Shown: piece by piece, positions 15,396 to 43,830 of the stretch
Layout of the letters: each line of letters opens with the position of its first letter
Numbering within the stretch: position 1 is the first letter of the stretch
Assembly (NCBI GenBank): GCA_009695095.1
Contig: SIBQ01000003.1
Location: 1-64,000, forward strand
Source: Lacunisphaera sp.
GTDB taxonomy: Bacteria > Verrucomicrobiota > Verrucomicrobiia > Opitutales > Opitutaceae
Length of the DNA stretch: 64,000 bases
Direction: 5' to 3'
Position numbers and translations under genes: made by a program
Notes under the pieces: model-generated
What the model was told of the DNA's origin: nothing
Seen by the model: only the letters and a program-made list of their open reading frames with translations
The model's database searches: none

Positions 15396-16068
15396 TAACC
15401 CGGAGTTGATGCAGAGAAGACGCTGGCGAGGGCCGTGCGTCTCCTAATGGAACGGGCTTGGCGACGGTTGGCAAGCTGCGTGATGCCTGGGTGCGGGTTT
15501 CGCCGTGATAAATCCTGATCAACCGGCCGGGCCGCCGGCTGCCGCCCCCCGCCCGGTTACGGCGGGCGCAGGGCGGGTGAGGTTGGGTGCGCTGTTGCAG
15601 ACGCTGGAGGGCAGCGCCACTAGCCTGCCCATTTACGACACCAGGGGCAATATACACGGCATGATCAAGGCCGCGGGTGGCACTCTCGCCGCCGCGTATG
15701 ACGAAGCACAGTAGTACGGAGATGGACCGACCGCCAGGTCGGCCCGACGACGGGCGAAGCGCTGCCGGCGCAGACCCGGTGGCAGCGCAAAGTGATATGA
15801 CGCTTATCCCGCCATCGAGTGCACCCGTGTCTTCCCTAGCGGAGAACAACGCCTGCACTTGGTCGCGGCTCGGCAAGATCCGCACTTTTCCGGTCACTTT
15901 TTTCTTCAACCTCCCACCGGAGAGCCGTCGAACGGCAACCGGATTCTGGTGAATCTGCTAAACCACTCCCGCTGAAAATCCAGTTTCCCATCGGTCGTTT
16001 TGCTTTATCTTGATCGCACAAGTCGGTAGGGAATTCCCTCCGTGCCACCCTTGAACTGGATTTGCTCT
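15396..16068. other. Intergenic region containing an RHS remnant
   Basis: About 670 bases upstream of gspD on one side and of the HupE-like gene on the other. It holds the short RHS remnant described separately and must contain the gspDEF promoter. Several open frames cross it, but none has a recognisable product or good start. The segment from 15715 to about 16020 shows nothing I can name. Confidence 0.5.
15625..15714 (+). pseudogene. RHS/YD-repeat fragment
   Basis: The frame reads LPIYDTRGNIHGMIKAAGG followed by TLAAAYDEAQ and a stop. The pattern YDxxGNxxGxxxAAGGxxxAxYxYD is the hallmark of RHS/YD repeats. Only one repeat remains, with no larger RHS gene around it, so it is a leftover of a deleted RHS-type toxin or wall protein gene. 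Confidence 0.6.
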
Positions 16069-17196
16069 GTGAAGCAGGGCATCCTCGCGCTGATTCTCGT
16101 TTATGCGACCGCTGTCGCGTGGGCGCACGATCCCGGCTTGAGTACGGCAACCGTGCGGCTGTTCCCCGACAAACTGGAAGCCATTCTCACGTTCGCGCTG
16201 AAAGACGCGAATGAACTCGCGGGCCTCGACACCAACAATGACGGGCAGGTGTCGGTCGAGGAATTCGCCGCCGCGCAAGAGCGGCTGGGGGAAACCGTGG
16301 CGAAAGCATTTGAGGTGCGTTTCGACGACACGCTCGCCAAGGCGACCGATGTCCGCTGCCAGCTTGATCAGAACAGCAACGTGGATGTGTATCTGAGTGT
16401 GGCGGGCAGGAAATTCTCGAAGCTGGCGGTCCGCTCGAAAATGATCGCGGGTTTTCGGATCGACCATCGGCAATACATCATGCTACAAAATCCCAGCGGC
16501 GTCACGATGGTGGAACGCCTGCTGAGTGCAAACTCCGATACCGTCGAGATTCAGTTTGCCGCCGAATCGCCCGCCGCGACAACGCCGGTAGCACCCGCGG
16601 CGGAGACACCACCACCAGCCCCGGCGAAAGGGGCCGACTTGACCTTCAGATCGTTTGTGCTTCTGGGCGTCGAGCACATCGGCACGGGCTACGATCATTT
16701 GCTCTTTCTGTTCGCGCTGCTGGTGGTGACGCGCAGTTTTCGTTCAGCATTGGTCGTGATAACCGCGTTCACCCTCGCACACTCGATCACGCTGGCGATA
16801 GCTACATTCAACCTCGTGCAACTCCCGGCCAAATACAACGAGCCGCTCATTGCGGCGACCATCGTTTATGTCGGCGTCGAAAACCTGGCGTGGCGCGGCG
16901 ACCCGCACGGGCGCTGGATGCTGACATTCGCGTTCGGATTGATCCACGGATTCGGCTTTGCCTCCGTGCTGCGCGACATGGGCGTGGGCGCGCACGCCGG
17001 CGGCGTGGCGATGCCGCTGTTCTCCTTCAATCTCGGCGTCGAACTGGGACAAATCGCCGTGGCGGCCATCATGCTGCCGATTATATGGCAGTTGCGGAAG
17101 AGGGAATTCTTCGTGCAACGCGGAGTGCCTGCGTGCTCGGTGATTGTGGCCCTGGTGGGGACGTATTGGTTTGTCCAACGCGTGTGGCCGAATTGA
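16069..17196 (+). CDS. HupE/UreJ-2 family membrane protein with an EF-hand
   Basis: About 375 residues. A signal peptide (KQGILALILVYATAVAWAHD) is followed by a periplasmic domain of about 170 residues containing one canonical EF-hand loop, DTNNDGQVSVEE (residues 54-65). After a Pro/Ala linker comes a six-helix membrane domain with the HupE/UreJ-2 signatures HIGTGYDHLLFLFALL, LAHSITLAI and GLIHGFGFASVLRDMG. The conserved His residues suggest metal handling (nickel/cobalt in characterised relatives). GTG 16069 is preferred to GTG 16042 because the signal peptide starts there. It is monocistronic. Confidence 0.85.
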   Translation: MKQGILALILVYATAVAWAHDPGLSTATVRLFPDKLEAILTFALKDANELAGLDTNNDGQVSVEEFAAAQERLGETVAKAFEVRFDDTLAKATDVRCQLDQNSNVDVYLSVAGRKFSKLAVRSKMIAGFRIDHRQYIMLQNPSGVTMVERLLSANSDTVEIQFAAESPAATTPVAPAAETPPPAPAKGADLTFRSFVLLGVEHIGTGYDHLLFLFALLVVTRSFRSALVVITAFTLAHSITLAIATFNLVQLPAKYNEPLIAATIVYVGVENLAWRGDPHGRWMLTFAFGLIHGFGFASVLRDMGVGAHAGGVAMPLFSFNLGVELGQIAVAAIMLPIIWQLRKREFFVQRGVPACSVIVALVGTYWFVQRVWPN

Positions 17197-17439: not shown

Positions 17440-17537
17440 ATCTTTAGCAAAGTGCCCCGATGAAGGAGCACGACCACCCGGACGATGATTGATATTCCTA
17501 AGAAACTGGATTTTCAGGGGGAGGGGTTGCCGCCGCC

Positions 17538-19244
17538 TCACGTCTCGATTTCCCTTCCGATCCGCAGCGGCAGGACGTTGTAGTCGACCTCCAGGCGCAC
17601 CGCCCACAGCATGAAGGGAAGGGTGATATCTTTCGGCCGGTTCTTCAGCCTGATCTTCAGGATGTTGTCGCCGCCCTTCACCCAATCGCCATGCGTGAGG
17701 TCGAATTTCGCCTCGAGCTGGCTGTGCATTCCGTTCCAGTTCCACGGATACTGCTGGCTCACATCCATCTTCGCCATGGCGAGGGGGATCTTCTTCCCAT
17801 TCCAGCTGAATTCAATCTCCTCGTCTCCGGTGACATTGCAGAGGTCGAGGCGCAGCACGAGTCCCGTGAGCAGATGCTTCGCCCTGGCCTCGGCGATATT
17901 ATCCCCGACCGGAATGCGGATCGCGACCACCGGCCCTCCCGCCTCGATCGTCACCGGCACCTGGCGGGGGTGATCCCCGAGTGGATGCTCCTGCGGTGCG
18001 TACTCGGTGATCGACTTGTTCTGGCCCTGGTAGTGCCCCGCCTGGCCGGCGATCATGTACAGTTTCCTCGTGTATTCGAGGGTGTGGGGACTGCCGATCT
18101 CCGACAGCAACGTTACGTCCTGGATCCGGTTCGTGATCGTCTGATGGTGAAAATTGAAAAGGTTGATCCCCTGGATGCCCTGCCGCCAGGCATTGAGCGC
18201 GGCCGCGCGCACCGCTTCCAAGGGCGGCGGCGCAAACCGCCCGGGCCCCACGCCTTCCATCACGCTCGCGTAGACGAGGCAGCTCGAGCCCCGAGCCATC
18301 TCCACGAAGGAGCCGAATGGCAGCTCGCATGAGGTATCGTAATAGACAGACGGAGTCAGGACATCGATGAGTCCTTCCTTGATCCAGGTGGGCACGTCAT
18401 AGCCCACCTGCTTGCAGATCTCCGGGGTGGCCGGGACCCGCACGCCGAATTTGAGCGGCTGGCCCCGTTTCTGCCCGACCCGGTTCAGCATCTGCCGGAT
18501 CTCATTCATGTACGCATTGAGGATCCCGACCCCGGCCTCCTTCTTCTGAGGCGGGAAATGCACCCCGATGTCCCGGGTGAAATCGAATTCGAAACCGTCG
18601 AGGTCGTACAGCGTGCAGACCTCTTCCACCTGCCGCAGCCGGAACGCCCTCACCTCCGGCAGCGAGAAATCCCGGTGGATGTCGTCCTTTATGAAATACT
18701 CCGGATGCTTCAGGCTGAAGCTGCTCCTCAGGCCGTAGCTGTCCGGATGGCCGTCATTGAATCGCATGGCCGACCAGAACTCCTTCCCGTTCGCATGGGC
18801 CGTCGCGATGGATTGCTTCCACGGATCCGCCTCCATTTTCAGCAGCGCCATCCGGTTCCGCAGATTTCGCCAGTTGTTGACGCTCTTCAGCATCTTCGGC
18901 GCGACGAGTGCCGCCTCCTCGATCTCCGACTTGAACATGGGCACCGTGTCCCCGAAAGAAAACATGTGGCAGATGATCCCGTCGACCTGTGTCCCCAGCA
19001 GGCGTCCGACGGTCTCGTAAACAAAGCTTTCCAAGGTGATCGGCGGCGGGACGTACATGAAGAAGCTGCCATCATGATGAATGTACAGCCTCGGGACCGG
19101 GGGCGCTTTTTCCCGCCCGGAGGCCGGGGGCTGCGCTGTCCGCGCCGAGACGGGAAGCAGCGCGGTGCCCGCTGCCATGGCGGCTGCCTTCTGCAGAAAA
19201 CTCCTGCGGTCTACGGGGCGGGGAGTGGGTTCAGGATTTTTAAT
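17538..19244 (-). CDS. Glycoside-hydrolase-like TIM-barrel protein, TAT-exported (copy 1, start codon altered)
   Basis: A 568-codon frame nearly identical to the gene at 27384-29093. The barrel part contains DGFEFDFTRDIGVHFPP, where acidic residues sit at a strand end as in glycosidase-like families (GHL10-type). The C-terminal part is a beta-sandwich (RIPVGDNIAEARAKHLLTGL). In copy 2 the protein begins MKNPEPTPRPVDRRSFLQKA with a twin-Arg signal. Here the same codons are present in frame but the ATG has become ATT at 19244. The next ATG (19178) would drop the twin Arg, so export is probably lost or start efficiency low. Substrate unknown. Confidence 0.7.
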   Translation of the reverse strand: MKNPEPTPRPVDRRSFLQKAAAMAAGTALLPVSARTAQPPASGREKAPPVPRLYIHHDGSFFMYVPPPITLESFVYETVGRLLGTQVDGIICHMFSFGDTVPMFKSEIEEAALVAPKMLKSVNNWRNLRNRMALLKMEADPWKQSIATAHANGKEFWSAMRFNDGHPDSYGLRSSFSLKHPEYFIKDDIHRDFSLPEVRAFRLRQVEEVCTLYDLDGFEFDFTRDIGVHFPPQKKEAGVGILNAYMNEIRQMLNRVGQKRGQPLKFGVRVPATPEICKQVGYDVPTWIKEGLIDVLTPSVYYDTSCELPFGSFVEMARGSSCLVYASVMEGVGPGRFAPPPLEAVRAAALNAWRQGIQGINLFNFHHQTITNRIQDVTLLSEIGSPHTLEYTRKLYMIAGQAGHYQGQNKSITEYAPQEHPLGDHPRQVPVTIEAGGPVVAIRIPVGDNIAEARAKHLLTGLVLRLDLCNVTGDEEIEFSWNGKKIPLAMAKMDVSQQYPWNWNGMHSQLEAKFDLTHGDWVKGGDNILKIRLKNRPKDITLPFMLWAVRLEVDYNVLPLRIGREIET

Positions 19245-19478
19245 AAAGTTTAGCGTCGCTGCAGGGTTTAGCCTTCAACGAAGTCCGGGATGATCAGGTT
19301 GGGTTTGGGCGGGAGGTGCCCCTTGTTCACCAGTTTCAGTATCAGGCGCGCGAGTCGCTGCATGTAGGCGTCGGATGCTCACTGGTAATGACGGGGTGCG
19401 GGATTCGGGCCCGGGGGCGATGTTAGTCCGGGAGGTAGGTTTGATGTGACGAAAGGGGTGGGTTTGGCAAGCCTGCGC
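17538..19478. repeat. 1.9-kb duplicated segment, copy 1 (pair: 27384-29328)
   Basis: The glycoside-hydrolase-like gene and about 230 bases upstream recur at 27384-29328 in the same orientation. Similarity begins at the common stop region (cgcctcacgtctcgatttcc) and continues through the upstream region to GTGGGTTTGGCAAGCCTGCG. That last stretch lies inside an IS3 transposase end. The two coding copies differ by scattered substitutions, so the duplication is not very recent. Confidence 0.85.
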
Positions 19479-19625
19479 GGAGGGAGGCCGTAGGCCGACC
19501 AGAGCGATGGCTGGAGGGAGTTGGGCGGCGAAGCGCTGCGGGGACTGATAGCCCAGCGCGCTGTGCGGCCGGGCGGAGTTGTAGTCCTGGCGGAAGTCCT
19601 CGATGACGACGCGGGCCTCGGTCAA
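19440..19625 (-). pseudogene. IS3 transposase OrfB C-terminal remnant
   Basis: The minus strand encodes LTEARVVIEDFRQDYNSARP followed by HSALGYQSPQRFAAQ. These are the last 60 or so residues of an IS3-family OrfB, closely matching the end of the complete copy at 41083. The catalytic core is missing. It lies directly upstream of the first glycoside-hydrolase-like copy, and a shorter piece of the same end precedes the second copy. Confidence 0.85.
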
Positions 19626-19854
19626 TCCTGGCGAACCGTCGAGTCTTACGGGCCGACTCTTAGAAAAACCAAGTCTTGAGGAGATATTTCGTGGCGACAA
19701 TTCACTCTACTCCCAAACAAAAGTAAGCAGCCACCGGACAGCTAGATGACGAGGCGGATGAGCCGCCTAGAAAACAGGTTTTGCGGCCGGCGTAGCGCGT
19801 GATCGCCGGAAGGGAAAACGGCAGGGCTGCGTCGTTATTGTCGCTTCTAGGGAG

Positions 19855-20155: not shown

Positions 20156-22450
20156 ATGAAAATACAATTCGGTAAGCTGTTCAAACTCTGGGCACCCATA
20201 GCGGCGCTCACATTGTCGGGGAATCTTCTTCTTGGGCAGGCCAAGGATGATAAAGATGAGGTAATAGTACTGGATCCGTTTAAGATTACAGGCGAATCCA
20301 CCAAAGGTTGGGGTGCGACTGAATCATTAGGTGGTACACGCATTCTAACTTCAATTCTGGACACGCCAATGAGCATTGCCGTTATTACGAAAGATTTGAT
20401 GGACACCGTTGGCGCTCACAGCGGTTTTGACTCGCTTCGCTGGGTGGCGGGGCTTGGGCCGGCGGCCCAGAGTGATATTGGAGCCTACTCCCTTCGCGGA
20501 CAACTTCCGCGCGGAACAGACACCGGAGTGGTCGATGGCCTGCCAGCCGGCGATGGCCAGCCGGCCGAGTCAGAGTTTATCGAGCGCTGGGAAGTGATCA
20601 AGGGTGCAGCTGGCACCCTTTTCGGTGATCATAACCTCGGCGGACTGGTTAATCGCGTCTACAAAAGGCCGCTGCAGACCAGACAGACGGTTCTAGGCAC
20701 TTCTTTCAGTTCGATTGGCAATACCATTCAAGGAACTATCGATACCACCGGCCCGATCGACCGCAAGGGTCAATTGACCTATCGGGCTGTCGGTATTCTC
20801 CGCTCGGGGGAAACTTCACTTGGTGACAAAGATGATAGAAAGAGAGGTTTCTATGGGACGATCGAATATGCACCGCAAGGCAGCGCAAGTAAGATTTGGG
20901 CGCGATATGAAAATTACGATTATCGTATCTATGAATACACGACGTCAGGAATCATCGATGGTGGCGGGAAAAATTTCTACGATGCAGGTCTTGGACGGCG
21001 GTATACCCGCCCGTGGAGCAAACACGTACCTCATTATGTGAACAAGTATTACGAGTTTGGCTTTTCATCAAAGATATCGGGCTCACTGGGCGAATGGAAC
21101 GCCCGGTTTGTTGCGCGCTATATTGATGCATTAAATCTTCCGACTACACCAATCATGACCACCAATGGGTGGCAGTTTCTCGACAAGAATGGCGCAGTCG
21201 TTGGTGAGCTCCTTGGACCTAACGTGAGTCCAACGGAGATTAGGTGGAGCGATAAAACATGGGTGGATGTTAGGAGCTCAGATACGCGAGCCTCAACCCT
21301 AAATGGTCGGTCGCAACGCAGGCTCTTGTTCTTTGATCTCGTGGGCGCCTTCAATACGGGGCCGCTCAGGCATAACATGATACTCTATACCCAGACGGCG
21401 GATAACCAAAGCATCAGCCAGCAATGGTTTTATACAATAAAACCCGAATTCGGTGGCAGCAGGTTCAGGAACAATCTGAATATTGCGAATGCCTTTAGTT
21501 TGATTAATCCAGTATTCGTCAAAGATCCATTCCAGCAGATACTTCCCGACAGCAAGGTGCTCGTCGGCAACGATCGGGCCGAAGATACTCGTTACAATGC
21601 CGGCATACAAGATAACATCTATTTTTGGGATAATCGTGTTCTATTTGTCGGGGGGTTGCGTTACGATTATGTGCAAGATCGCGGAACACGTAACTTAATT
21701 ACGAAGACGGAGTCGCCTAATCAGCAAAAGTCGAATGTTGTGAATAAACTCTCCGTAGTAGTTAAGCCGTTTGCCAACCGGGGTGTGGCTTTTTTCCTCA
21801 ACCGTTCGGAAACGTTCACTCCGCTTTTTGGAGAATTGGTTGTGGGTTCGGGCATTCCGTTTAAGAACCAAGTGGGTATAAGCAAAGAGGTCGGGGTGAA
21901 ACTTGAGGTTTTTGATCAAAGGCTGATACTGACCGCCTCATATTTTGAGGCCGAAGTACAGAACCTGACTATCTTCCTCTTCAATCCGGCGACCGGTTTC
22001 AATGAATACCAGCAAAGAGGAGTTTCTCCCTCGAAGGGTTGGGATCTCGACGCCACTTGGACCATAAATGACAATTGGAACGTTCTGGTCGCTTTGTCGG
22101 ACGTTGAATCAAAGGACTTCAGGGGATTATTCTTACGCAACGTAATGAACGGCTTTAACTATAGAACTCTCGTGCGCTGGTCTGCTCCTTCTATGGGGAA
22201 ACTCAAAGGATTCTCCTGTGGCGCGGGAGTTGTCACTCTCAGTGACCGGGTCGATGCGACAAATCGCTTCACCGAACCAGGCTATAACCAATACGAAGCG
22301 TTTGCAGCATACGCCCGGGGGAAGTGGGTGGTGCAGGTTAACCTAAAGAATCTTTCGGACGTCATAGGCACGCAAAGTCTTACTGGCCGCTACACTCAAT
22401 GGGTGAATGAACCGCGGTCATTTGAGCTGTCTACGCGGTATAAATTCTAA
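20156..22450 (+). CDS. TonB-dependent outer-membrane receptor
   Basis: A 764-residue protein from ATG 20156, with a signal peptide ending near LLLGQA. The N-terminal box EVIVLDPFKITGESTKGWGA and the plug (TPMSIAVITKDLMD, GQLPRGTDTGVVDG, FIERWEVIKGAAGTLFGDH) match siderophore-type TonB receptors of Opitutaceae. A 22-strand barrel ends in the aromatic RSFELSTRYKF. There is no SusD partner. The gene leads a + strand group with a TAT-type protein (22740) and a PHP metallohydrolase (23802). The ligand is probably a carbohydrate or its derivative, judged by neighbours only. Confidence 0.92.
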   Translation: MKIQFGKLFKLWAPIAALTLSGNLLLGQAKDDKDEVIVLDPFKITGESTKGWGATESLGGTRILTSILDTPMSIAVITKDLMDTVGAHSGFDSLRWVAGLGPAAQSDIGAYSLRGQLPRGTDTGVVDGLPAGDGQPAESEFIERWEVIKGAAGTLFGDHNLGGLVNRVYKRPLQTRQTVLGTSFSSIGNTIQGTIDTTGPIDRKGQLTYRAVGILRSGETSLGDKDDRKRGFYGTIEYAPQGSASKIWARYENYDYRIYEYTTSGIIDGGGKNFYDAGLGRRYTRPWSKHVPHYVNKYYEFGFSSKISGSLGEWNARFVARYIDALNLPTTPIMTTNGWQFLDKNGAVVGELLGPNVSPTEIRWSDKTWVDVRSSDTRASTLNGRSQRRLLFFDLVGAFNTGPLRHNMILYTQTADNQSISQQWFYTIKPEFGGSRFRNNLNIANAFSLINPVFVKDPFQQILPDSKVLVGNDRAEDTRYNAGIQDNIYFWDNRVLFVGGLRYDYVQDRGTRNLITKTESPNQQKSNVVNKLSVVVKPFANRGVAFFLNRSETFTPLFGELVVGSGIPFKNQVGISKEVGVKLEVFDQRLILTASYFEAEVQNLTIFLFNPATGFNEYQQRGVSPSKGWDLDATWTINDNWNVLVALSDVESKDFRGLFLRNVMNGFNYRTLVRWSAPSMGKLKGFSCGAGVVTLSDRVDATNRFTEPGYNQYEAFAAYARGKWVVQVNLKNLSDVIGTQSLTGRYTQWVNEPRSFELSTRYKF

Positions 22451-22478
22451 CGGAGGGACTTAGCGCGAAATGCAAGAA

Positions 22479-22515
22479 TGATTCCGTGTCGCAGGCAGCA
22501 GGCGGCACGGAATCA
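22479..22515. terminator. Hairpin downstream of the TonB receptor
   Basis: TGATTCCGTG and CACGGAATCA form the outer stem, with CGC/GCG continuing it. The hairpin lies 29 bases after the receptor stop. No U-run follows, so it may slow transcription or protect the mRNA rather than end it. It probably lowers expression of the two genes downstream relative to the receptor. Confidence 0.45.
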
Positions 22516-22739
22516 CTAAGAAAGCGGGCGCGGTTTCCCGAACTTGGCGGATATATTATTTCAGCTGCCCCCGCCGCAGCTCGGGAATCACCCCCGCGAC
22601 CTGAACAGCACCTGAAAGAACTCTGACCCTTCAGCGTAAAGCCGGTTCCGGCATGCGCATACACCCCCTATCAACACCGGTTGGAGCCAAGAAAGGGCGA
22701 CCGCAAAGACCAGACCAAAATTAAATCCATGGAGAACCA

Positions 22740-23753
22740 GTGAATGATAATCGCAGGCATTTTTTGCTCAGCGCAGGAGTTTTGTCCCTGGGAGTCGTGC
22801 CTCTCATGAAAAAAATAATGAACAACAGCGGGAGCGCTAACGGAAAAGGCGATTGGGAATGTGTCGTGGAGTTAGATGATAAGCGGAACCTGGTGTCCGG
22901 CAGCATGGAGACCCTTGCCGCTGCGATCCGGCACGGCGCGGATCTTCGCTTTAAAAGTGCTTTCCACCATAATGAGCACATTGATCCCAAATCTACTAAT
23001 CCCGAGCTAATCGAAGAGGTGATGGATTGGAGGGTGACGTACCTATTGGATAATCGGTGGGTGGCAGCATGTTGCCCCTTGAGGCAGCCGGTCATTTTAC
23101 TTGGGAATGGATTTGGCCCCGATCCGTCCCTGTCACTGTTTATGTATAATCAAGATGGTCGCCAGGCCGTCGCGCGTTTGTTCCTAAAGGCGGAGATTGC
23201 TTTGGGCGAGATTGGCCCATCGCCGTTGGATGTTAATGATCATAGCGGCGGGCCGAAGTCTCACCAGTTCGATTCGTGGGACAAGAATACCAACGCACCC
23301 AGTAACAACTTTGTTTGGGACTTTGATAGTTTCCGATGGTACGTTCGGGATGATTGGAAGGAGGTTTATGCCCACGCTGCGGACGGCACTCCGACCGCGG
23401 GTTCGATCGATTCCCTTGCAGAGGAATTCCGCCGGGGCAGGGAAGTAAAGGTCGGCATCACTGGACTCTGTGCGGATCTCGCGGGTGACGATAATGCGAC
23501 TGTTCCCCACGAGGTTTTTGTTCACTGCGGGGCATGCTATTATTACACCGTGCAAAAGATATTTAGTGCAGGATCGCAACCAGTCGTGCGAGTCAAACCG
23601 CAAATCCCTCTTCGCTACCAAAGTCGCGGGTGGGACTACGGTTGGCTCTACATGCGGACCGACGGGCTTGTAACCCGACGTATAGTTAATCCGTACACGC
23701 TGCGTTTCAATGACGCGGTAGGTCAGTATGCAATACGTTGGTTCGTGCGGTAA
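22740..23753 (+). CDS. TAT-type exported protein of unknown function
   Basis: A 337-residue protein starting at GTG 22740 with a GGAG box seven bases before. The N-terminus NRRHFLLSAGVLSLGVVPL is a twin-Arg signal. The mature part has WECVVELDDKRNLVSGS, ADLRFKSAFHHNEHID, RVTYLLDNRWVAACCPLRQP and a Trp/Tyr-rich end (YQSRGWDYGWLYMRTDG). I do not recognise a characterised family. It is 48 bases ahead of the PHP metallohydrolase and probably cotranscribed with it. A role in binding or processing the same ligand is inferred from the neighbours. Confidence 0.8.
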   Translation: MNDNRRHFLLSAGVLSLGVVPLMKKIMNNSGSANGKGDWECVVELDDKRNLVSGSMETLAAAIRHGADLRFKSAFHHNEHIDPKSTNPELIEEVMDWRVTYLLDNRWVAACCPLRQPVILLGNGFGPDPSLSLFMYNQDGRQAVARLFLKAEIALGEIGPSPLDVNDHSGGPKSHQFDSWDKNTNAPSNNFVWDFDSFRWYVRDDWKEVYAHAADGTPTAGSIDSLAEEFRRGREVKVGITGLCADLAGDDNATVPHEVFVHCGACYYYTVQKIFSAGSQPVVRVKPQIPLRYQSRGWDYGWLYMRTDGLVTRRIVNPYTLRFNDAVGQYAIRWFVR

Positions 23754-23801
23754 GATCTAAAAGTCGCACTGACCTGGCCTAATGAACATGGCCCGTATCT
23801 T

Positions 23802-26800
23802 ATGCATGAGAATCTCCGCGAATATTGCGTTCCAGTGAAAAAGAATCCCGGCAATCTGACGGGCATGTCGTTATTGGAGACTTGGCTGCTGCGTTGGTGC
23901 CTCGCCGCATTCCTTTTCCCGGTTGTACTATTTGCCGATCAACAACTAGAGCGGGGCGGTAACGTTCCTGCGGGTAATGGGGCTGAAGATAGCAGCGCTG
24001 CTTACCGCGACGCGAACGGGGGCGCGGGCAATGAAATGGCGGCTTCCATTCCGTTTGCGTCATTCCGGATAATCTTTGGCTTAAGAGACACCTCACCTCG
24101 TGATTGGTCCGGCCAAGTACTGCCAAAACCTGGACAGCTCTTGCAAGTTGAGGGGGACCGGTTGCGCCGAAAAAACGAGCATTCGGTAGGGGAGGGCGGG
24201 GTCAACTTCGGAACGCCGGCGGTTAACCTCATTGAACCGTTGTTTGGCGAAGATCTTATAGTCGACCGCACGTCGTGGATTTGCAGTTCTCGCCTGGCGT
24301 CAATGCATGGTCCGACCACCGAGTGGCATTTTTTTGAACAGGAACCGGTTCCTGTCATCCAGCAACCCAGTGTACTGATTCACCTCAGGAACGATGCCCT
24401 TGGTCAGCCAATTGAAATTACGACCAAGTCCGGAAATTTCACGTTTGTGCCGCGCTTGGTCATTCCCTTTAGGCCGGCGAGCTTTTTGGAAGGCGATGTC
24501 CGGGTTGAATGCGTTCCGAGGGTCGCCTCGGTGTTTCCGCGAAGCAATGTCCAGCAGGATTTTCCGTCCGAGCTATCTGCGACAGGAGGAAAGGTCTGGG
24601 TCGCCTGGCAGGAGCACGACGGCAATACTGATTCAGTTCTTGTTCGGGCTCGGGAGGGTGACTCATGGGGTCCCGTAAAGGTTTTAGTCGATAAGGCTGA
24701 TGTGTTCCGCACTCAAATTGGCGAAGATGCCGACAAGCGAATCTGGGTGGTATGGTCGATGCAAGTTGAGGGTAATTGGCACCTGTGGGGTCGGGCCTTC
24801 GATGGGAAGGAGTGGTCTGCGATGCAACGGTTGACCCAGGCTGGAAAGAAGAATGTTTATCATCAAGTGCTCGCGGACTCGGAGGGTCGCCTTTGGCTGA
24901 TTTGGCAGAGCACAGACGAAGGGCTTAGCCAGATATTCGCAAGATGTCTGGAAAGCGGTCGTTGGACAAACGAAGAACAAATCTCCGAGGGTGTATCCGC
25001 AGCGGGGAATAACTGGTGGCCGGCATTGGCCGCAGGTTCGAACGGGTCGGTTGTTGTTGTGTGGGATGGTTATGCCGCGGGTAACTACGATGTATTCATC
25101 CGGCGTTATGCAGGCGGTGCGTGGGGCGAAACGAAAGTCGTGGCCGCGACGGACCGATTTGAGGCGCATCCTTCGGTAGCCATCGACAACAAGAATCGGG
25201 TGTGGATTGCATGGGACGAATCAGGGCCAAATTGGGGAAAGGATACCGGATTTCTCGTAATCAAGCAGGAAACTCAATTGCACGAATCCCGTAACATTCG
25301 CGTTGCCTGCCTTGACGGGGATCGATGGCTGGAACCACTCGGAGACATCAGCCATGTGTTCAGCCCACGAGAATTTTGGGAGCTGCCCTATCTGAAGATC
25401 GACAAACAAGGTGTCCCCTGGTTGTTCGCGAGGCATTTGGTCATGAAGCAGCCCGATACTCCACTGGGAGGCCCGATCGATTATGCTCTTTGGGAAATTC
25501 ATGCTACGAGGTATGAGGGGAACCAGTGGACGGAGCCTGTTTGCTTGCCCGGTAGCAGTGGGAGAAACGAGATGATGCCGGCCGCGGTTGCTGGTACTGA
25601 TGGCGGGCTCTGGGCGGTTTGGGCAACTGATGGACGCGACAGCAAAACCTACGTGGCGCAGAGCTTGCAGATTAAGCTCGGCCTGGTCGAAAGTGTCTCG
25701 GGATCGATAGCCGCCGACCTGGTGCAGCGGCAAGCTCCTCCGTTACTTCCCAAGGTACTCACCACTGCAGAAACTGAGCAAATCAAGGCCGTCCGTTCGT
25801 ACCGCATTCAGCACCACGGAAAGATTTATTCAATATTTCGGGGTGATCTACACCGACATACGGACAATTCACTCGACGGCAAGAACGACGGCTCTTTGCT
25901 CGACGCCTATCGATATGCGCGAGACGCAGCTGGGCTGGACTACCTTGGTGTCTCCGACCATACGGACGGATTCGATGATTCTGACGCGTGTTCCTACCTG
26001 TGGTGGCTCAACCAGAAAATGGCTGATTTATTTCAGATTCCGAATTCGTTCGCAGCATTCTATGGATATGAAAGGTCGGTCCCGTATCCCAATGGGCATC
26101 GAAATATTTTCTTCGCAAAGCGGGGGCAAAAGATCTTGCACACAGACTATAACATCTTGGGTCCTGAGATGAAGGGCATTAAAGGAAGTGCTGATCTCTA
26201 CGAATATCTCCATCGAGGCGACGGCTTCAGTATTCCACATACTACCGGTAGGACATCCGGCACAGACTGGCGCGACCACGATTCCAAAGTCGAAAGCATT
26301 ATGGAGATCTACCAGGGCATGCGAGACACCTATGAGCACGTTAGCGCGCCCCGTCCGAAGAGACTCTGGTCGGAATGGCTCGATCCGAGCCGGCCGATTC
26401 CACGGGCTTCATCCTTGCCTTCGAGCCCTTCGTTTAAGCCCCTTGGGTTTGCTTGGAAGGCCTTGGGGAAAGGACATCACCTGGGATTCATCGCCGCTTC
26501 CGATCATATTTCTACCCACATCAGCTATGGATTCCTAGTCGCTGAGCATTTAACCCCTGAAAGCCTGCTAGAGGCTGTGCGGGCGCGAAGAACTTACGGG
26601 GCCACTGATAATATCATTCTTGATGCACGCTTTGTTGGCTCTGACGGAGAGCACCTTATGGGTGATGTTTTTGAGAGCAGCACTCCAGTATCAATTAAAG
26701 CAGAAATTGTCGGTACTGGCGAAATCTTACAAATTGATCTAATCAAGAATGGTGAGGTTGTGCATACGACCTACCCGGCCAGGCGCGAGGTCACATTTGT

Positions 26801-26933
26801 GTATACCGATTCTTATGGCAGAATCGGAGAGAACTACCTTTATCTTCGCCTAATTCAGAACAACGGCGAAATTGCCTGGGGATCGCCAATATGGGTAACA
26901 TATTCGCATAGTGCTGATAAGAATGTTAAGTAA
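23802..26933 (+). CDS. Exported PHP/CehA-McbA-type metallohydrolase with beta-propeller-like N-terminus
   Basis: A 1043-residue protein; the true start may be ATG 23865, where a signal peptide (SLLETWLLRWCLAAFLFPVV) begins. Residues about 240-500 hold repeated WVAWQEHDG / WVVWSMQVEG / WLIWQSTDEG / VVVWDGYAAG strands, a propeller of about six blades. The C-terminal part (about 680-1000) is a PHP-like hydrolase: GDLHRHTDNSLDG, GVSDHTDGFDDSD, IPHTTGR and GFIAASDHIS supply metal ligands of the CehA/McbA family. These enzymes cleave phosphate or carbamate-type esters in known members. The substrate here is unknown. It is the last gene of the receptor group. Confidence 0.85.
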   Translation: MHENLREYCVPVKKNPGNLTGMSLLETWLLRWCLAAFLFPVVLFADQQLERGGNVPAGNGAEDSSAAYRDANGGAGNEMAASIPFASFRIIFGLRDTSPRDWSGQVLPKPGQLLQVEGDRLRRKNEHSVGEGGVNFGTPAVNLIEPLFGEDLIVDRTSWICSSRLASMHGPTTEWHFFEQEPVPVIQQPSVLIHLRNDALGQPIEITTKSGNFTFVPRLVIPFRPASFLEGDVRVECVPRVASVFPRSNVQQDFPSELSATGGKVWVAWQEHDGNTDSVLVRAREGDSWGPVKVLVDKADVFRTQIGEDADKRIWVVWSMQVEGNWHLWGRAFDGKEWSAMQRLTQAGKKNVYHQVLADSEGRLWLIWQSTDEGLSQIFARCLESGRWTNEEQISEGVSAAGNNWWPALAAGSNGSVVVVWDGYAAGNYDVFIRRYAGGAWGETKVVAATDRFEAHPSVAIDNKNRVWIAWDESGPNWGKDTGFLVIKQETQLHESRNIRVACLDGDRWLEPLGDISHVFSPREFWELPYLKIDKQGVPWLFARHLVMKQPDTPLGGPIDYALWEIHATRYEGNQWTEPVCLPGSSGRNEMMPAAVAGTDGGLWAVWATDGRDSKTYVAQSLQIKLGLVESVSGSIAADLVQRQAPPLLPKVLTTAETEQIKAVRSYRIQHHGKIYSIFRGDLHRHTDNSLDGKNDGSLLDAYRYARDAAGLDYLGVSDHTDGFDDSDACSYLWWLNQKMADLFQIPNSFAAFYGYERSVPYPNGHRNIFFAKRGQKILHTDYNILGPEMKGIKGSADLYEYLHRGDGFSIPHTTGRTSGTDWRDHDSKVESIMEIYQGMRDTYEHVSAPRPKRLWSEWLDPSRPIPRASSLPSSPSFKPLGFAWKALGKGHHLGFIAASDHISTHISYGFLVAEHLTPESLLEAVRARRTYGATDNIILDARFVGSDGEHLMGDVFESSTPVSIKAEIVGTGEILQIDLIKNGEVVHTTYPARREVTFVYTDSYGRIGENYLYLRLIQNNGEIAWGSPIWVTYSHSADKNVK

Positions 26934-27383
26934 TTGCGAGGTGGCTACTCTGGCCGGCAGGAATTATTCGATGCACCCGCGGTGTCAGTCATGGGGGATG
27001 CCCTTGGATTGCACCCTGCTCGTTCGTGGTCGGAGAGTGCGATGTCGACGGCGCTGATCGCCAACCGGAGGGGTCCGGCTTACCACAGCCAGTGCATGTC
27101 CCGATAAATCTTGGTCCAGAGATAATCGATCCGACGTACATCCTCTCCGATGAGGCATTCGCTGACGTGCCGGCAGGCCGCCGCCACCAAAGGCGAGCCG
27201 GGTCAGTTCGTGGCCTCGCCCCAGCCGTGGAGACCGGATTCCGGATCGATTCTCAGCAAAGTCGAGTTGTACTTGATGCCCTCGACCAGGAAGGTTCGGC
27301 AGGAGGTTGTTTTCATCGCCCGTTGATCCAAGCTCGCGCCCTGTCCATCGCAGCCCGGTGGTAGGAGCGGCGGACGCGCCGCC
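26934..27383. other. Intergenic region with an enolase-superfamily remnant
   Basis: 450 bases between two convergent genes. The middle part on the minus strand is a decayed enolase-superfamily gene (listed separately). The remaining 90 bases after the metallohydrolase show nothing recognisable. Confidence 0.5.
27025..27316 (-). pseudogene. Enolase-superfamily dehydratase, broken N-terminal fragment
   Basis: From ATG 27316 the minus strand reads MKTTSCRTFLVEGIKYNSTL and then LRIDPESGLHGWGEATN, the start of a mandelate racemase-type capping domain. A stop follows, then in the same frame HVSECLIGEDVRRIDYLWTK. After another stop and a frameshift comes AGPLRLAISAVDIALSD, matching the family's SAVDIALWD. 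The rest of the barrel is gone. It is a dead relative of the two intact enolase genes at 34788 and 48298. Confidence 0.8.
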
Positions 27384-29093
27384 TCACGTCTCGATTTCCC
27401 GTCCAATCCGCAGCGGCAGGACGTTGTAGTCGACCTCCAGGCGCACCGCCCACAGCATGAAGGGAAGGGTGATATTATTCGGCCGGTTCTTCAGCCTGAT
27501 CTTCAGGGTGTTGTCGCCGCCCTTCACCCAATCGCCATGCGTGAGGTCGAATTTCGCCTCGAGCTGGCTGTGCATTCCGTTCCAGTTCCACGGATATTGC
27601 AGACTCACGTCCATCTTCGCCATGGCGAGGGGGATTTTCTTCCCGTTCCAGGTGAACTCCATTTCCTCGTCTCCGGTGACATTGCAGAGGTCCAGACGGA
27701 GGAGCAGTCCCGAGAGCAGATGCTTCGCCCTGGCCTCGGCGATATTATCCCCGACGGGAATGCGGATCGCGATCACCGGCCCGCCCGGCTCGATCACCAC
27801 GGGCACTTGGCGGGGATGACTCCCGAGGTAATCCTTCTGCGGCGCGTACTCGGTGATCGACTTGTTCTGGCCCTGGTAGAATTCCGCCTGGCCGGCGATC
27901 ATGTACAGTTTCCTCGTGTATTCGAGGGTGTGGGGACTGCCAATCTCGGAGAGCAATGTCATGGCCTCGACCCGGTTGGTGATCGTCTGATGGTGAAAGT
28001 TGAAGAGGTTGATCCCCTGGATGCCCTGCCGCCAGGCATTGAGCGCGGCCGCCCGGACCGCTTCCAGCGGTGGCGGCGCAAACCGGCCGGGTCCCACGCC
28101 CTCCGTCACGCTGGCATAGACGAGGCAGGATGAGCCTCGGGCCATATCCACGAAGGAGTCGAAAGGCAGCTCGCAGGTGGTATCGTAATAGACGGAAGGA
28201 GTCAGGACATCTATGAGTTCCTCCCTGATCCAAGTGGCAACGTCATAACCCACCTGTCGGCAAATCTCCGGGGTGCCCGTCACACGTACGCCGAACTTGA
28301 GCGGCCGACCCCGTTTCTGGCCGACCCGGTCCAACATCTGCCGGAACTCCTTCAGGTACGCATTGAGGATCCCGACCCCGGCCTCTTTCTTCTCCGGTGG
28401 GAAATGCACCCCGATGTCTCGCGTGAAGTCCAATTCGAAACCGTCGACGTCGTACAAGGTACAGATTTCCTCCACCTGCCGCAGACGAAACGCCCTCACC
28501 TCGGGGAACGAGAAATCCTGGTGGATGCCGTCCTTTAGGTTATACTCCGGATGCTTCAGGCGGAAGCTGTTCCGCAGGCCGTAACTGTCGGGATGGCCGT
28601 CGTTGAACCGCATGGCCGACCAGAACTCCTTCCCGTTCGCATGGGTCAACGCGATCGCCTCCTTCCATGGATCAGCCTCCATCTTCAGCAGTGCTGTCAG
28701 GTTTCGCACGTTCCTCCAGTTGTTGACGCTCTTCAGCATCTTCGGTGCGACCAGTGCCGCCTCCTCGATACCCGACTTGAACAGGGGCACCGTGTCTCCG
28801 ACTGTAAACATGTGGCAGATGATCCCGTCGACCTGTGTCCCCAACAGGCGTCCGACGATCTCGTAGACAAAGTGTTCCAAGGTGATCGGCGACGGGACGC
28901 ACATGAGGATCCAGCTGCCGTCATGATGATAGTACAGCCTCGGGGCCGGGGGCACTTTTTCCCGCCCGGAGGCCGGGGGCTGCGCCGTCCGCGCCGGGAC
29001 GGGAAGCAGCGCGACGCCCGCGGCCATGGCGGCTGCCTTCTGCAGGAAACTCCTGCGGTCTACGGGGCGGGGAGTGGGTTCAGGATTTTTCAT
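27384..29093 (-). CDS. Glycoside-hydrolase-like TIM-barrel protein, TAT-exported (copy 2, intact)
   Basis: A 569-residue protein. The N-terminus has the twin-arginine signal RRSFLQKAAAMAAGVALLPV. The barrel region (about 60-360) contains EFWSAMRFNDGHPDSYGL, DGFELDFTRDIGVHFPP and DVLTPSVYYDTTCELPFDSF; these acidic and Tyr residues at strand ends suit a carbohydrate-active fold of the GHL10 type. The C-terminal beta-sandwich has WNGKKIPLAMAKMDVS. This copy has a normal ATG, unlike copy 1. It lies beside an enolase remnant and ahead of an SDR on the other strand. Catalysis is not proven. Confidence 0.75.
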   Translation of the reverse strand: MKNPEPTPRPVDRRSFLQKAAAMAAGVALLPVPARTAQPPASGREKVPPAPRLYYHHDGSWILMCVPSPITLEHFVYEIVGRLLGTQVDGIICHMFTVGDTVPLFKSGIEEAALVAPKMLKSVNNWRNVRNLTALLKMEADPWKEAIALTHANGKEFWSAMRFNDGHPDSYGLRNSFRLKHPEYNLKDGIHQDFSFPEVRAFRLRQVEEICTLYDVDGFELDFTRDIGVHFPPEKKEAGVGILNAYLKEFRQMLDRVGQKRGRPLKFGVRVTGTPEICRQVGYDVATWIREELIDVLTPSVYYDTTCELPFDSFVDMARGSSCLVYASVTEGVGPGRFAPPPLEAVRAAALNAWRQGIQGINLFNFHHQTITNRVEAMTLLSEIGSPHTLEYTRKLYMIAGQAEFYQGQNKSITEYAPQKDYLGSHPRQVPVVIEPGGPVIAIRIPVGDNIAEARAKHLLSGLLLRLDLCNVTGDEEMEFTWNGKKIPLAMAKMDVSLQYPWNWNGMHSQLEAKFDLTHGDWVKGGDNTLKIRLKNRPNNITLPFMLWAVRLEVDYNVLPLRIGREIET

Positions 29094-29328
29094 GAAGTTT
29101 AGCGTCGCCGCAGGGTTTCGCCTTCGACGAAGTCCGGGATGATCAGGTTGGGTTGGGCGGGAGGTGCCCCTGGTTCACCAGTTTCAGTATCAGGCGCGCG
29201 AGTCGCTGCATGTAGGCGTCGGATGCGCACTGGTAATGACGGGGTGCGGGATTCGAGCCCGGGGGCGATGTTAGTCCGGTTGATTGGTCAAAGTGTCGGG
29301 AAGAGGTGGGTTTGGCAAGCCTGCGCGG
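27384..29328. repeat. 1.9-kb duplicated segment, copy 2 (pair: 17538-19478)
   Basis: Second member of the duplicated pair. The upstream block with the phrase GCATGTAGGCGTCGGATG is shared with copy 1 and contains no gene. The segment ends in GTGGGTTTGGCAAGCCTGCG, a piece of the same IS3 end found beside copy 1. An IS3 element probably took part in the duplication. Confidence 0.85.
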
Positions 29329-30387: not shown

Positions 30388-31713
30388 TCAATTGGCAAGC
30401 TTGAGGATGTGCCGCAGCTGCAAGGGACGATCAACTCCGGAAAGTAGATTGGTCACGGTTAGCTGAATCTCCAGAGGGCTACTCTGATCACGATTCTTTT
30501 TTAAAGTAAAGGGGACCAATGTCGTGGCGTTGGGGGCTAGACTCATAGTTTTGGGCAGGCTGCCGGGCAAACTGGGAATGCCTGCATTGAACGAGATGGA
30601 CCCATCCCCTTCGTTCAGCGCGAACCGCACGACGAAAGGAAACGAGGAGCGATTCTCCACTGAAAAATAGCTCATTGAGAATCCGGAAAGATCGGCTGGC
30701 GCGTATGAAAGCTGCAGGGAGGCCTCGGCAACTGCCTTGAGCCAACGCTCTGATCCCCAAATCATCTCATTGAAGTAAGCCAGGGTTCGACGTTGCTTAA
30801 TGGCCTCATGGACGCCTTGAGGATCCTGGCTCTTCGAGAGCACCAAAGTCATGGGGCGGCGTTCCCCTTTTGAACGATCAACGAGCAAATCGATTGGCCA
30901 GTGGGCATCGGAAACCGCGAAAACAGCCAGGTTGTTTTCCAGACACCAGTCCATCACTTGGGGATAAAACCACGTCCCCAATGAGAACTGTGTGCCCAAT
31001 CTATTGCCGACCTGAGTGTTCTTGATCTCAATGCCATCCAGTCTGCCGCTTTTCAATAGCTCGCGGGCTTCTGGAACCCATTCGGTGTGAGGATGAGCCC
31101 AAACCAGGATTCCGCGCTGATCCTGAGAGACTGACTTGAACACCGAGGGATAATCGCCGGACAGTGGAGATTCATCGCTGATGAAGTGGGCCTCATAATC
31201 GCTGTTGCGGGCTGGGCGCAAGGAAGCAGAGGAAGTGGAGGAAGTGGTGATTTCAGCGCTGTGAATCAACAACATGTTCAGCTGGGCAGCGAGATGCTTC
31301 GCTCGCTCATAGGCGCGCCCCCGGTCGTCAGGAAAAGCGACGTTCAGATACTCGGGATGGTCCGTGATGGCCAGAACGTCTAGGCCGTCTCGCCATGCTT
31401 CATAAACACGCACTTCCGGTGTCACCTGTCCGTCGGAGTAAAGCGTGTGAATATGGAACTCCCCTTTCAGTACCTGATAGCCCTCCACTTCGGGAAAGGT
31501 GATTTGATCGCGGTGAAGACCAGCCTCATAGCCTAGATAGAACATCTGATAAGGCCACTCCTGGTGCACCTGAGAAGGCCGCTTCGCCGCCGCAGTGGAG
31601 CCGGCGTCGGGCTGTGGGCCGGGAGCGGCTTGCCCCCATCCCAGTAGAGGCAGGGCGACAAGCATAGCAGACCGGTACAACGTCTGAACTGTGATCTTGA
31701 GGTTCGCTAACAT
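30388..31713 (-). CDS. Exported PHP-domain metallohydrolase
   Basis: A 441-residue protein. ATG 31713 is chosen because GGGAGAGG lies seven bases before it and a signal peptide follows (TLYRSAMLVALPLLGWGQA). The PHP signatures are GEFHIHTLYSDGQVTP, LAITDHPEY, LIHSAEITT, WAHPHTEW and VFAVSDAHWP, which provide the metal-binding His and Asp residues. A C-terminal beta domain (about 330-440) follows. It is related in fold to the C-terminal half of the gene at 23802 but has no propeller. It is transcribed alone, toward SDR A. Substrate unknown; phosphoester or similar is likely from the family. Confidence 0.87.
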   Translation of the reverse strand: MLANLKITVQTLYRSAMLVALPLLGWGQAAPGPQPDAGSTAAAKRPSQVHQEWPYQMFYLGYEAGLHRDQITFPEVEGYQVLKGEFHIHTLYSDGQVTPEVRVYEAWRDGLDVLAITDHPEYLNVAFPDDRGRAYERAKHLAAQLNMLLIHSAEITTSSTSSASLRPARNSDYEAHFISDESPLSGDYPSVFKSVSQDQRGILVWAHPHTEWVPEARELLKSGRLDGIEIKNTQVGNRLGTQFSLGTWFYPQVMDWCLENNLAVFAVSDAHWPIDLLVDRSKGERRPMTLVLSKSQDPQGVHEAIKQRRTLAYFNEMIWGSERWLKAVAEASLQLSYAPADLSGFSMSYFSVENRSSFPFVVRFALNEGDGSISFNAGIPSLPGSLPKTMSLAPNATTLVPFTLKKNRDQSSPLEIQLTVTNLLSGVDRPLQLRHILKLAN

Positions 31714-31865
31714 CTGAGACCTCTCCCGATGGCCTGTTTGTTCAACAACATTCCTGTTAGGAATTCTGTTCATATCGTCATGTCAAGGGCGTTCGATAAC
31801 CAGTCGCTCCTTAAAAACACCCCATACTGTTGTTTGGTATAATGGTAGGCATGGTATATGCATGA

Positions 31866-36718: not shown

Positions 36719-37867
36719 TTACGAAGGAACGGTCCAGACAACCGCCCTTGCCTTGGCAGTGGCCGGGGAGTTCTTCAAATCATCCACTTGGTAGTATACC
36801 GTGAAAATCCGCCCGTCCGGAAGCTGGACCGACGTCGGATAGCCGCAATCGGTGGTGGGCGCGTCCCAGACCAGTTGAAACCGATTCTGCCGGTCCCAGG
36901 TCTTTCCTTCGTCGCGGCTGATCATCGCCTGCACGCCGTAAAACGGAAGGCGCCGGTCACCATAGGAAAACAGCACCCGTCCGTCTTTCAACTGCAGCAG
37001 GCTGCCGGGTTTTTCGCCGGATTCGGTCGCCGTGCCGAAGTTCCACCACGTCCGGCCCTCGTCCACCGACTCGTGGATGGAGACACCGTGTTCGCCCCGT
37101 ACCGCCGCCAGCAATTTTCCGGACGACAGCAGGAGCAAGCCCGTCTCATCGCCGTTGCTGATCAACGACCGGTCACCCCAGGTTTTCCCGCCGTCTTTCG
37201 AGCGGAACACATGGCTTTGGAACTCCCGGTCCCCGGGCGACCGGAATATGTCCGCGCGACCGGGATTGTGGGAGTAGGCCGTGGCGACATGGATGAGCAG
37301 CGTGCCAGAGGGCAGTTCGACGATGCGGCTGTGCGTGTTTCCCCAGGTGTGCGGCGAAATGTCGATTTTCGAGGGAACCGTCCAGGTTCGGCCGAGATCC
37401 TTGGATTGGGTCAGGTAAACATTGACGTTTTGGTTATCCGCCCGGCCTTGGGCGTCGAACTCGTAGATATGAAAACCGAGAACGAGGGTTCCGTCCTTGA
37501 GCTGTGACAGCCATCCGTCGCGCAGGTCCTGGTTTGGGCGGGAGGCGGCGACTCCCACCGGCTCGGACCAGGTTCGTCCGCCGTCGCCTGATCTGGTCAG
37601 CGCCAGCTGGGATCCCCCGCGGGTCACCCCATGGGGCGCGCCGGTACGGGCGATGACCGCCAGTTCGCCGTTTTGGAGCAAGGCGATGGTCGGCCAGAAG
37701 CCGCCGTTCTCCATCACGATGACTCGCTCGGCCTCGAGCGTCCGAAACTGAAGAACTTCATCGTGGAATCGGTTCGGGACACCGAAAGCCGTCTCGGCCG
37801 GAAAGGCCTGCGGGTAAGCCAGGCCGAGCGCCAGCCAGGCGACGACCATGGCATTAGCTTTATTCAT
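36719..37867 (-). CDS. Exported BNR-repeat sialidase-like protein A
   Basis: A 382-residue six-bladed propeller. Five Asp-box motifs are clear: SGDGGRTW, SKDLGRTW, SKDGGKTW, SVDEGRTW and SRDEGKTW. The signal peptide is ANAMVVAWLALGLAYPQAFP. The start ATG 37867 overlaps the stop of the upstream gene (ATGAATAA), so the two are coupled. Sialidase-fold proteins of this kind in Verrucomicrobiota hydrolyse diverse acidic or neutral sugars. The Arg triad of true sialidases cannot be confirmed by eye. Confidence 0.85.
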   Translation of the reverse strand: MNKANAMVVAWLALGLAYPQAFPAETAFGVPNRFHDEVLQFRTLEAERVIVMENGGFWPTIALLQNGELAVIARTGAPHGVTRGGSQLALTRSGDGGRTWSEPVGVAASRPNQDLRDGWLSQLKDGTLVLGFHIYEFDAQGRADNQNVNVYLTQSKDLGRTWTVPSKIDISPHTWGNTHSRIVELPSGTLLIHVATAYSHNPGRADIFRSPGDREFQSHVFRSKDGGKTWGDRSLISNGDETGLLLLSSGKLLAAVRGEHGVSIHESVDEGRTWWNFGTATESGEKPGSLLQLKDGRVLFSYGDRRLPFYGVQAMISRDEGKTWDRQNRFQLVWDAPTTDCGYPTSVQLPDGRIFTVYYQVDDLKNSPATAKARAVVWTVPS

Positions 37868-38708
37868 AGATAAAAAACGCAACCTTCATCCGGTCGTCGT
37901 CGATATGGACAGTCCGGTTGAAATCATGCGTCACCGTCTCCCCATATGAGACCTGGTCGCGAACCTTGAACTGGAGCGACTTGGTCTGTCCGCGCTCGAT
38001 CCACGAAACCACATAGGCCGTGAAAAACAGGCCGTCCTTCTCGTAGAGCACATAGCCCGAGATGGGCTGCAAATACGACCGGACGCCTTTCGTGGGATGG
38101 GGAAAATTGATGTAGTTGCTTGGCGCATAAAGCACGTATTCATACCCATCTTGGCGATACGATATCGCTATGTAGAGCCTGCGGTAGCCGTCTTTGAAAT
38201 CCGACTGGAGCATCTGCAATGCTTCGGCAAAGGATACCGCCTTCGCCTTTCGGTCCGGACAGGCGACCTTGATCGTCATGTCGCTGGGCATTTTCCCATA
38301 TTGCTGGACTGGCTGGTTCGCGTGTCCCGGGCCGCTACGGATGGCATAGTTGCCATCCCAAGCGCTTAGTCCCACCCATTCGTAATTGCCATGGTGGCCA
38401 AACGGGTTTTCACCGACCGATTCGGCCCGGCATTCGTGGCCCAGATAGGCGCGCTGAACCTGCGATTTGCCGGCGGTCTTTCTGACCAGGACGCATTCGA
38501 TCGGGGTCAACCAGCGGTTTTCGTTCACCTTTTTATCGATGACTCCATCGTAATTGAAGATCATGAATCCGTCCTGCAGATCGGGAGCGATCATGGTTTG
38601 TTGGCCGGATGGAGTGGCTTCGGAGATTGCTTGGAGCTTGCCCGCGGCGGCGAGGGCGGCGAATCCCAAGATTACGTGGCCGAGAAAGAGCCAACGGGTT
38701 GAAGGCAT
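37860..38708 (-). CDS. Exported protein of unknown function in receptor-sialidase operon
   Basis: A 282-residue protein with a signal peptide (WLFLGHVILGFAALAAAGKL). The mature part contains DGFMIFNYDGVIDKKVNENR, YLGHECRAESVGENPFGHHG, GNYEWVGLSAWDGNYAI and YEYVLYAPSNYINFPHPTKG. The composition is beta-rich. I recognise no family. It lies 33 bases after the TonB receptor and overlaps the sialidase-like gene. It could be a surface glycan-binding protein, but that is position-based only. Confidence 0.8.
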   Translation of the reverse strand: MPSTRWLFLGHVILGFAALAAAGKLQAISEATPSGQQTMIAPDLQDGFMIFNYDGVIDKKVNENRWLTPIECVLVRKTAGKSQVQRAYLGHECRAESVGENPFGHHGNYEWVGLSAWDGNYAIRSGPGHANQPVQQYGKMPSDMTIKVACPDRKAKAVSFAEALQMLQSDFKDGYRRLYIAISYRQDGYEYVLYAPSNYINFPHPTKGVRSYLQPISGYVLYEKDGLFFTAYVVSWIERGQTKSLQFKVRDQVSYGETVTHDFNRTVHIDDDRMKVAFFIYE

Positions 38709-38741
38709 CGGACGGAAGACTATTTAGCGGAGGTTCCGGTA

Positions 38742-40973: not shown

Positions 40974-41082
40974 GCCGATGCTGCATGCGAGCTAAGGCAT
41001 TTGTCAATGTTGAATCCTGATGTATTTCACATATAACATTCGTGCCTCTGACCGGGTTCAACTTTTCGAGCCACCCCGAGCG

Positions 41083-42295: not shown

Positions 42296-42413
42296 TCAAG
42301 GTGGCTCGAAAAAGAGAGGTCACGTCACCGCCGCCTGGTCTCGGCGCGAAAAATAAACCCAGGCCGGCAAAGAATGATGGCTAATCAGGGAGCCTACGGC
42401 TTTAACCCCTCCC

Positions 42414-43574: not shown

Positions 43575-43615
43575 AGGATTCAGCTACGGGTAGTCCCAAA
43601 AAAAAGGCACTACCA

Positions 43616-43830
43616 ATGAAGCAGAAACGATACAGCAATGAGCTGATAGTCCATGCACTTAAACAGGCCGACGCTGGCCAGAGGATCGCGGAGTTATGCC
43701 GGGATGGGCGTGAGCGAAGCCCGGGAGCTGCGCCAGCTACGTGAGGAGAACGCCAAGCTGAAGCAGTTGGTCGCGGATCTCAGCCTGGACAAGCACATGC
43801 TGCAGGAGGTGATCGCAAAAAAGCTCTGTG
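43616..43830 (+). pseudogene. IS3 OrfA, broken by internal deletion
   Basis: Begins at ATG 43616 with MKQKRYSNELIVHALKQADA and reaches ELCR, then changes frame to GMGVSEARELRQLREENAKL and KQLVADLSLDKHMLQEVIAK. About 20 residues that form the recognition helix and linker are missing between the two parts, and the frame is lost (stop at 43742). The second part still carries the A AAA AAG slippage site at 43817-43823 used to enter OrfB. Confidence 0.85.

Follow-up and report, generated by a model that had tools for sequence, protein, structure and literature searches.

A low-GC trio of co-directional genes in a carbohydrate-use region

The window, a 64,000-nucleotide stretch of contig SIBQ01000003.1 from a Lacunisphaera genome (2.14 Mb, 41 contigs, 91.5% complete), contains three open, co-directional plus-strand reading frames, which the initial annotation had described and which are present in the ORF list. 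They encode a TonB-dependent receptor, a protein of an unannotated family (P2, or the 22740 protein) and a propeller-PHP hydrolase (P3), and together they form a low-GC segment flanked on each side by a GHL10-like gene, the two flanking genes being diverged copies of one another. The features of the segment and its flanks are as follows.

17531..19480, unstranded: direct repeat copy 1, left flank (sequence comparison)
17538..19178, minus strand: GHLa, GHL10-like putative glycoside hydrolase, copy 1 (PF02638 9.8e-4, under cut-off)
19275..19700, minus strand: ORF carrying the remnant of a transposase C-terminus, located upstream of the receptor (rve_3 PF13683 5.6e-10, residues 24-54; PHROG transposase)
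20156..22450, plus strand: TonB-dependent receptor, 764 aa, without a SusD partner (Plug PF07715 5.6e-11; GC3 0.532)
22740..23753, plus strand: P2, 337 aa, unannotated family, GTG start, twin-arginine N-terminus (by eye), two similar halves (ORF list)
23802..26933, plus strand, probable true start 23865 (M22): P3, putatively exported propeller-PHP hydrolase (ORF, domain scans, alignment)
27377..29328, unstranded: direct repeat copy 2, right flank (sequence comparison)
27384..29093, minus strand: GHLb, GHL10-like putative glycoside hydrolase, copy 2, twin-arginine signal (TIGR01409 19.3 bits, cut-off 16.7; PF02638 2.5e-3, under cut-off)

The receptor and P2 genes are separated by 289 bp, and P2 and P3 by 48 bp (111 bp with the later P3 start), while the GC3 of the trio is 0.53-0.57, compared to 0.72-0.90 in most other window genes measured. 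The short gaps and common low GC fit one operon, and the three genes may therefore be transcribed as a single unit and cooperate locally. The low GC3 of the trio and the transposase remnant alongside are also consistent with horizontal acquisition. Base composition alone marks no island, since a second receptor gene (38742-40973, GC3 0.64) and a second PHP gene (30388-31773, GC3 0.61) outside the trio are lowish too. The latter, oriented against P3 and 3.5 kb away from it, encodes a CehA/McbA-like protein (43.1 bits, cut-off 80).

The flanking 1.95-kb repeat copies share 89.4% DNA identity, and each holds one GHL10-like gene, with PF02638 scores of 18.7 bits (GHLa) and 17.4 bits (GHLb) that fall below the cut-off of 27.9 for GHL10 membership. 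Copy 1 reads ATT (FIKNPEP...) at the position of the copy 2 ATG start, such that GHLa may start further in, or the gene may be decaying. The ORF with the transposase remnant spans the end of the left copy and extends into the unique segment. The repeats are unlikely to stem from a recent mobile element: the differences between the copies number 75, 48 and 120 at first, second and third codon positions, and this excess at third positions makes the copies look like diverged paralogues.

The wider window fits the carbohydrate context initially proposed for the trio. Its sugar-use genes include SDRs, an AstE/AspA-type gene, two BNR_2 genes, a NanM-like Kelch gene, an enolase-superfamily (mandelate-racemase-type) gene and DUF4432, and are accompanied by the second TonB receptor, a GntR/LacI-type regulator and the GHL10-like genes, with type II secretion-like genes at the left. 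A sugar-use cluster at 36719-50789 gathers the two BNR_2 genes, the NanM-like Kelch, the enolase-superfamily gene, an SDR, DUF4432, the GntR/LacI-type regulator and the second receptor. A HupE/UreJ_2 gene occurs near the trio (16042-17196), and another directly adjoins a P3 relative elsewhere (L039:6195-7661).

Receptor and propeller-PHP hydrolase

The first gene product is a TonB-dependent receptor, as annotated: it matches the Plug domain at 43.3 bits (cut-off 23.9), is barrel-sized and carries a signal peptide recognised by eye. Family matches are found in 99 of 223 genomes of the order. The nearest full-length relatives, in genomes G013 and G030, are 30% identical to the receptor. Beside each of them lies a gene in which the 'GWNTWDTRSVLRHV' stretch recurs, and that of G030 scans as an MGH1-like glycoside hydrolase. 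These neighbours point to carbohydrate uptake; iron uptake may be an alternative, because siderophore receptors head the list of NCBIfam matches, every one of which scores far below its cut-off. The lack of SusD, initially noted as a feature of the trio, is real but no peculiarity, as SusD (PF07980) was found in 0 of 19 genomes, namely the source genome and 18 relatives.

The description of P3 as a fusion of a propeller to a CehA/McbA-type hydrolase holds for the overall architecture, though not for the family name. Seven blade motifs (W or V, two residues, W or A) occur at residues 264, 313, 363, 416, 466, 538 and 602, spaced by approximately 50 residues apart from one interval of 72 and one of 64. 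The pattern was drawn up after inspection of the sequence and yields a count of 14, because each motif is matched in two registers, compared to a mean of 0.26 and a maximum of 4 in 1000 shuffles. This agrees with the six to eight repeats of ~50 residues expected of a seven-bladed beta-propeller, an assignment made by sequence alone (the single-sequence model has a pLDDT of 33.0). The C-terminal PHP region passes the cut-off of DUF3604 (PF12228; 28.4 bits, cut-off 20.4) over profile positions 128-254 of 591 only, but reaches only 52.7 bits against the CehA/McbA family NF038032 (cut-off 80), over profile positions 160-314. Residues H684, H686, D719, H720, E757, H766, H813, E835 and D901 are invariant in 10 aligned P3 proteins, with HxH, DH, E, H and D columns that we take to be the PHP metal-ligand motifs. 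In the last motif, the window protein and its near relatives have SDHxSTH, and L050 and L052 have SDTHH. Because the ligands are invariant in all ten proteins, P3 is likely an active metal hydrolase.

The initial annotation had further described an exported chain of 1043 residues. A Sec-type signal is indeed recognisable by eye, but it begins at M22, which is invariant in the 10 aligned proteins; since the relatives begin at this position, P3 probably starts at the ATG at 23865 and comprises 1022 aa. A profile search of PDB sequences with P3 returned nothing usable, the lone lead being the PHP-like protein 3e38 (E 0.28), and no characterised member of an exported propeller-PHP family was found in the open-access literature searched, where the one listing for DUF3604 concerned Chlamydia mutagenesis.

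The resemblance to CehA/McbA raises the alternative that the trio is a carbamate or aromatic-ester degradation set, with a cehA-like gene behind an upstream TonB receptor. The 52.7-bit match and the conserved PHP-type histidines speak for such a set; however, P3 stays below the family cut-off, its context consists of sugar genes, and aromatic catabolic genes were not recognised among the window genes scanned. We consider this reading very unlikely.

The propeller-PHP fusion is widespread rather than rare. The P3 family is present in 29 of 223 order genomes, including G047, and the Acidobacterium genome G574 has 11 long P3 profile matches, ten ORFs matching over both propeller and PHP by blastp; in the C174 region of that genome, the ORF caller took a different frame and the P3 ORF is not labelled. 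These approximately ten full-length paralogues (L095-L104) have varied neighbourhoods. Two relatives were found on plasmids, one of them spanning residues 250-1032 on a Cetobacterium plasmid, and none on viral contigs. In the P3 tree, the window copy branches with Acidobacterial and order copies at a fork that is not resolved, and a donor therefore cannot be named.

P2, an unannotated family with two similar halves

The second protein was rightly called one of unknown family: searches of Pfam, NCBIfam, PHROGs and PDB sequences gave nothing above cut-off, and its relatives share 29-56% identity. Its assignment to twin-arginine export stands in part. The motif NRRHFLL is recognisable by eye, but neither PF10518 nor TIGR01409 matches the N-terminus and a clear cleavage site is not visible there; an export-like N-terminus was seen, also by eye, in 4 of 11 P2 sequences (window, L007, L074 and L056). 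The two halves of P2 resemble each other (blastp of half against half, E 0.016), and a model from a 4-row alignment (mean pLDDT 46.9) shows, with low confidence, a repeated strand-strand-helix-strand pattern. The best Foldseek match with this low-confidence model had an E-value of 0.29.

Among the 223 order genomes, P2 was detected in the source genome and in G047 (33% identity). A weak G040 match, which covers 101 residues of a 1016-aa frame at E 7.4e-4, was dropped as chance. A profile search found the family in 9 of 387 phylum genomes, and in 1 of 396 genomes of the phylum to which the Acidobacterium genome G574 belongs, namely G574 itself. Members occur in several families of the phylum that includes the window, and also in a Planctomycetaceae MAG, in this Acidobacterium and in a MAG labelled Thaumarchaeota. 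In the last of these, the relative (L006:2522-3424, 50% identity) lies on a 5.7-kb contig and could reflect transfer or mis-binning. No P2 relatives were found on viral contigs or on the plasmids searched. P2 is the sole part of the trio with some novelty, and merits its own family entry.

The three families occur independently in related genomes

The trio had been proposed to act as one uptake unit, in which the receptor, the twin-arginine protein and the propeller-PHP hydrolase are dedicated to joint uptake and cleavage. The shared strand, the gaps given above and the common low GC3 favour such a unit, but the three families occur apart in related genomes, which is the outcome that the initial annotation had itself named as refuting it. 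P2 is convincing in 2 of the 223 order genomes and P3 in 29, and the two are adjacent in the window only. Of 18 order P3 loci fetched, 12 besides the window's have a near full-length propeller-PHP ORF (the rest being partial or split), and these 12 contain neither P2 nor a blastp match to the window receptor.

The converse analysis, of the neighbourhood of the 22740 family, used the 12 other P2 genomes (G047, eight found in the phylum search and three in a contig search) and found P3 beside P2 in none of them, the recurrent neighbour being a GHL10-like gene instead. Full-length P3 is present only in G574, with a divergent copy in G047 and a weak propeller-only match in G572; in neither G574 nor G047 does P3 lie on the P2 contig, and the G574 contig stretches read at both P2 ends lack it. 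A Plug match is absent from 5 of 11 P2 genomes, and none was found in G217, which has P3. Receptors are likewise no commoner beside propeller-PHP genes than expected, contrary to the proposed tie between receptor and hydrolase: 3 (L040, L051 and L102) were detected by Plug or Pfam within 5 kb of P3 in 24 loci, compared to ~2.7 expected from receptor density. By eye only, an Oar-like receptor was also seen beside P3 in L096 and a second such receptor in L102. The complete trio was found in one of the genomes searched, and closer relatives outside this set may carry it too; it is unusual as a local arrangement only, and a dedicated three-part unit appears improbable.

A GHL10-like gene recurs beside P2

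The neighbours of P2 elsewhere include GHL10, BNR_2, GH20, GH2, HpcH/HpaI aldolase, LacI, rhamnosidase, YhcH, UxuA, Gfo/Idh/MocA and DUF6807. The GHL10-like gene is a recurrent partner of the family. Using a model that combines the two window proteins with that of L007, we detected a GHL10-like relative in 4 of the 12 other P2 loci (L110, L073, L074 and L070), compared to 1 of 36 control loci (18 order P3 loci, 6 receptor loci and 12 G574 P3 loci; Fisher p = 0.011). L110 matches by construction, its own protein being in the model, and without it the count is 3 of 11; the G574 locus is divided into two pieces (L109 and L110), which brings the P2 locus set to 13 entries. The GHL10-like gene lies 35 bp from P2 in L070, overlaps it by 4 bp in L073, and is 54 bp away in L074 and ~3 kb away in L007/L110; in the window the distance is 3.6 kb on either side. 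At L007:4978-6780, an in-frame stop divides the GHL10-like gene into two ORFs that share a frame.

These observations suggest an alternative in which the functional partner of P2 is the GHL10-like pair bracketing the trio, the receptor and PHP gene having landed between them. By HMM, L070 matches only weakly (2.9e-4), but hhalign gives it a probability of 97.3%, compared to 0.07% and 0.44% for two unrelated TIM-barrel controls. Both PF02638 matches of G355 lie on its P2 contig, whereas P2 genomes can be rich in GHL10 genes (34 in G342). Furthermore, 8 of the 12 other P2 loci, several on short contigs, have no GHL10-like gene, and those of the window are on the opposite strand to the trio. We regard this partnership as a serious possibility, at somewhat below even odds.

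Interpretation and comparison with known systems

The occurrence of the three families apart in related genomes argues that the trio came together locally in a sugar-use region, and against a dedicated new system. We therefore favour, with a probability of roughly 0.7, a local cluster in a carbohydrate-use region, probably gained by horizontal transfer, whose three genes are inherited independently of one another. Within such a cluster, the PHP enzyme would be exported, kept on its substrate by the seven-bladed propeller, and would cut an ester or phosphoester bond outside the inner membrane, with the TonB receptor importing the substrate or a product. The initial annotation had put forward an ester-modified glycan or an aromatic glycoside as the putative target of cleavage. 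P2, apparently exported here though most relatives are without an export signal, may aid sugar use, and its partner would more plausibly be the GHL10-like hydrolases than the PHP enzyme. A more specific proposal, that P2 represents a new two-halved family acting in sugar or sugar-acid use with GHL10-like hydrolases, and is paired here with the receptor and propeller-PHP hydrolase on an ester-decorated glycan, is speculative and on balance unlikely. The tempting claim of a new system is thus corrected by the finding that the three families travel separately, and what remains is small and testable: an annotation-free P2 family that repeatedly neighbours GHL10-like genes, and a large propeller-PHP family with predicted export.

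The trio resembles the SusCD polysaccharide utilisation loci (PULs) of Bacteroidota in placing outer-membrane TonB uptake beside exported proteins, but is unlike them in that SusD is missing from the source genome and its relatives, and it does not qualify as a SusCD-type PUL. SusCD genes are also reported absent from the Verrucomicrobiota MAGs of one study (PMC8857213). The trio is further akin to the TonB/CUT-type loci already described for Verrucomicrobia, where a TonB receptor occurs among exported hydrolases and sugar-use genes, and SusD is not named in the portion of the source available (PMC5615132). Unlike those loci, the trio has neither an inner-membrane sugar transporter nor a recognised glycoside hydrolase, and its exported enzyme would be a PHP hydrolase; the GntR/LacI-type regulator, BNR and NanM-like genes lie 10-25 kb off, with no transporter among the scanned subset of window genes.

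With the CehA/McbA metallohydrolases, P3 shares the PHP-type histidines, and a TonB receptor is reported to precede cehA in Sphingomonas sp. CDS-1 (PMC8292978); P3 differs in scoring under the family cut-off, in its N-terminal propeller and in lacking a carbamate context. P3 does pass the cut-off of DUF3604 (PF12228), through a partial profile match. Finally, GHL10 (PF02638), although its window copies score under the Pfam cut-off, is the recurrent neighbour of the P2 family and flanks the trio on both sides.
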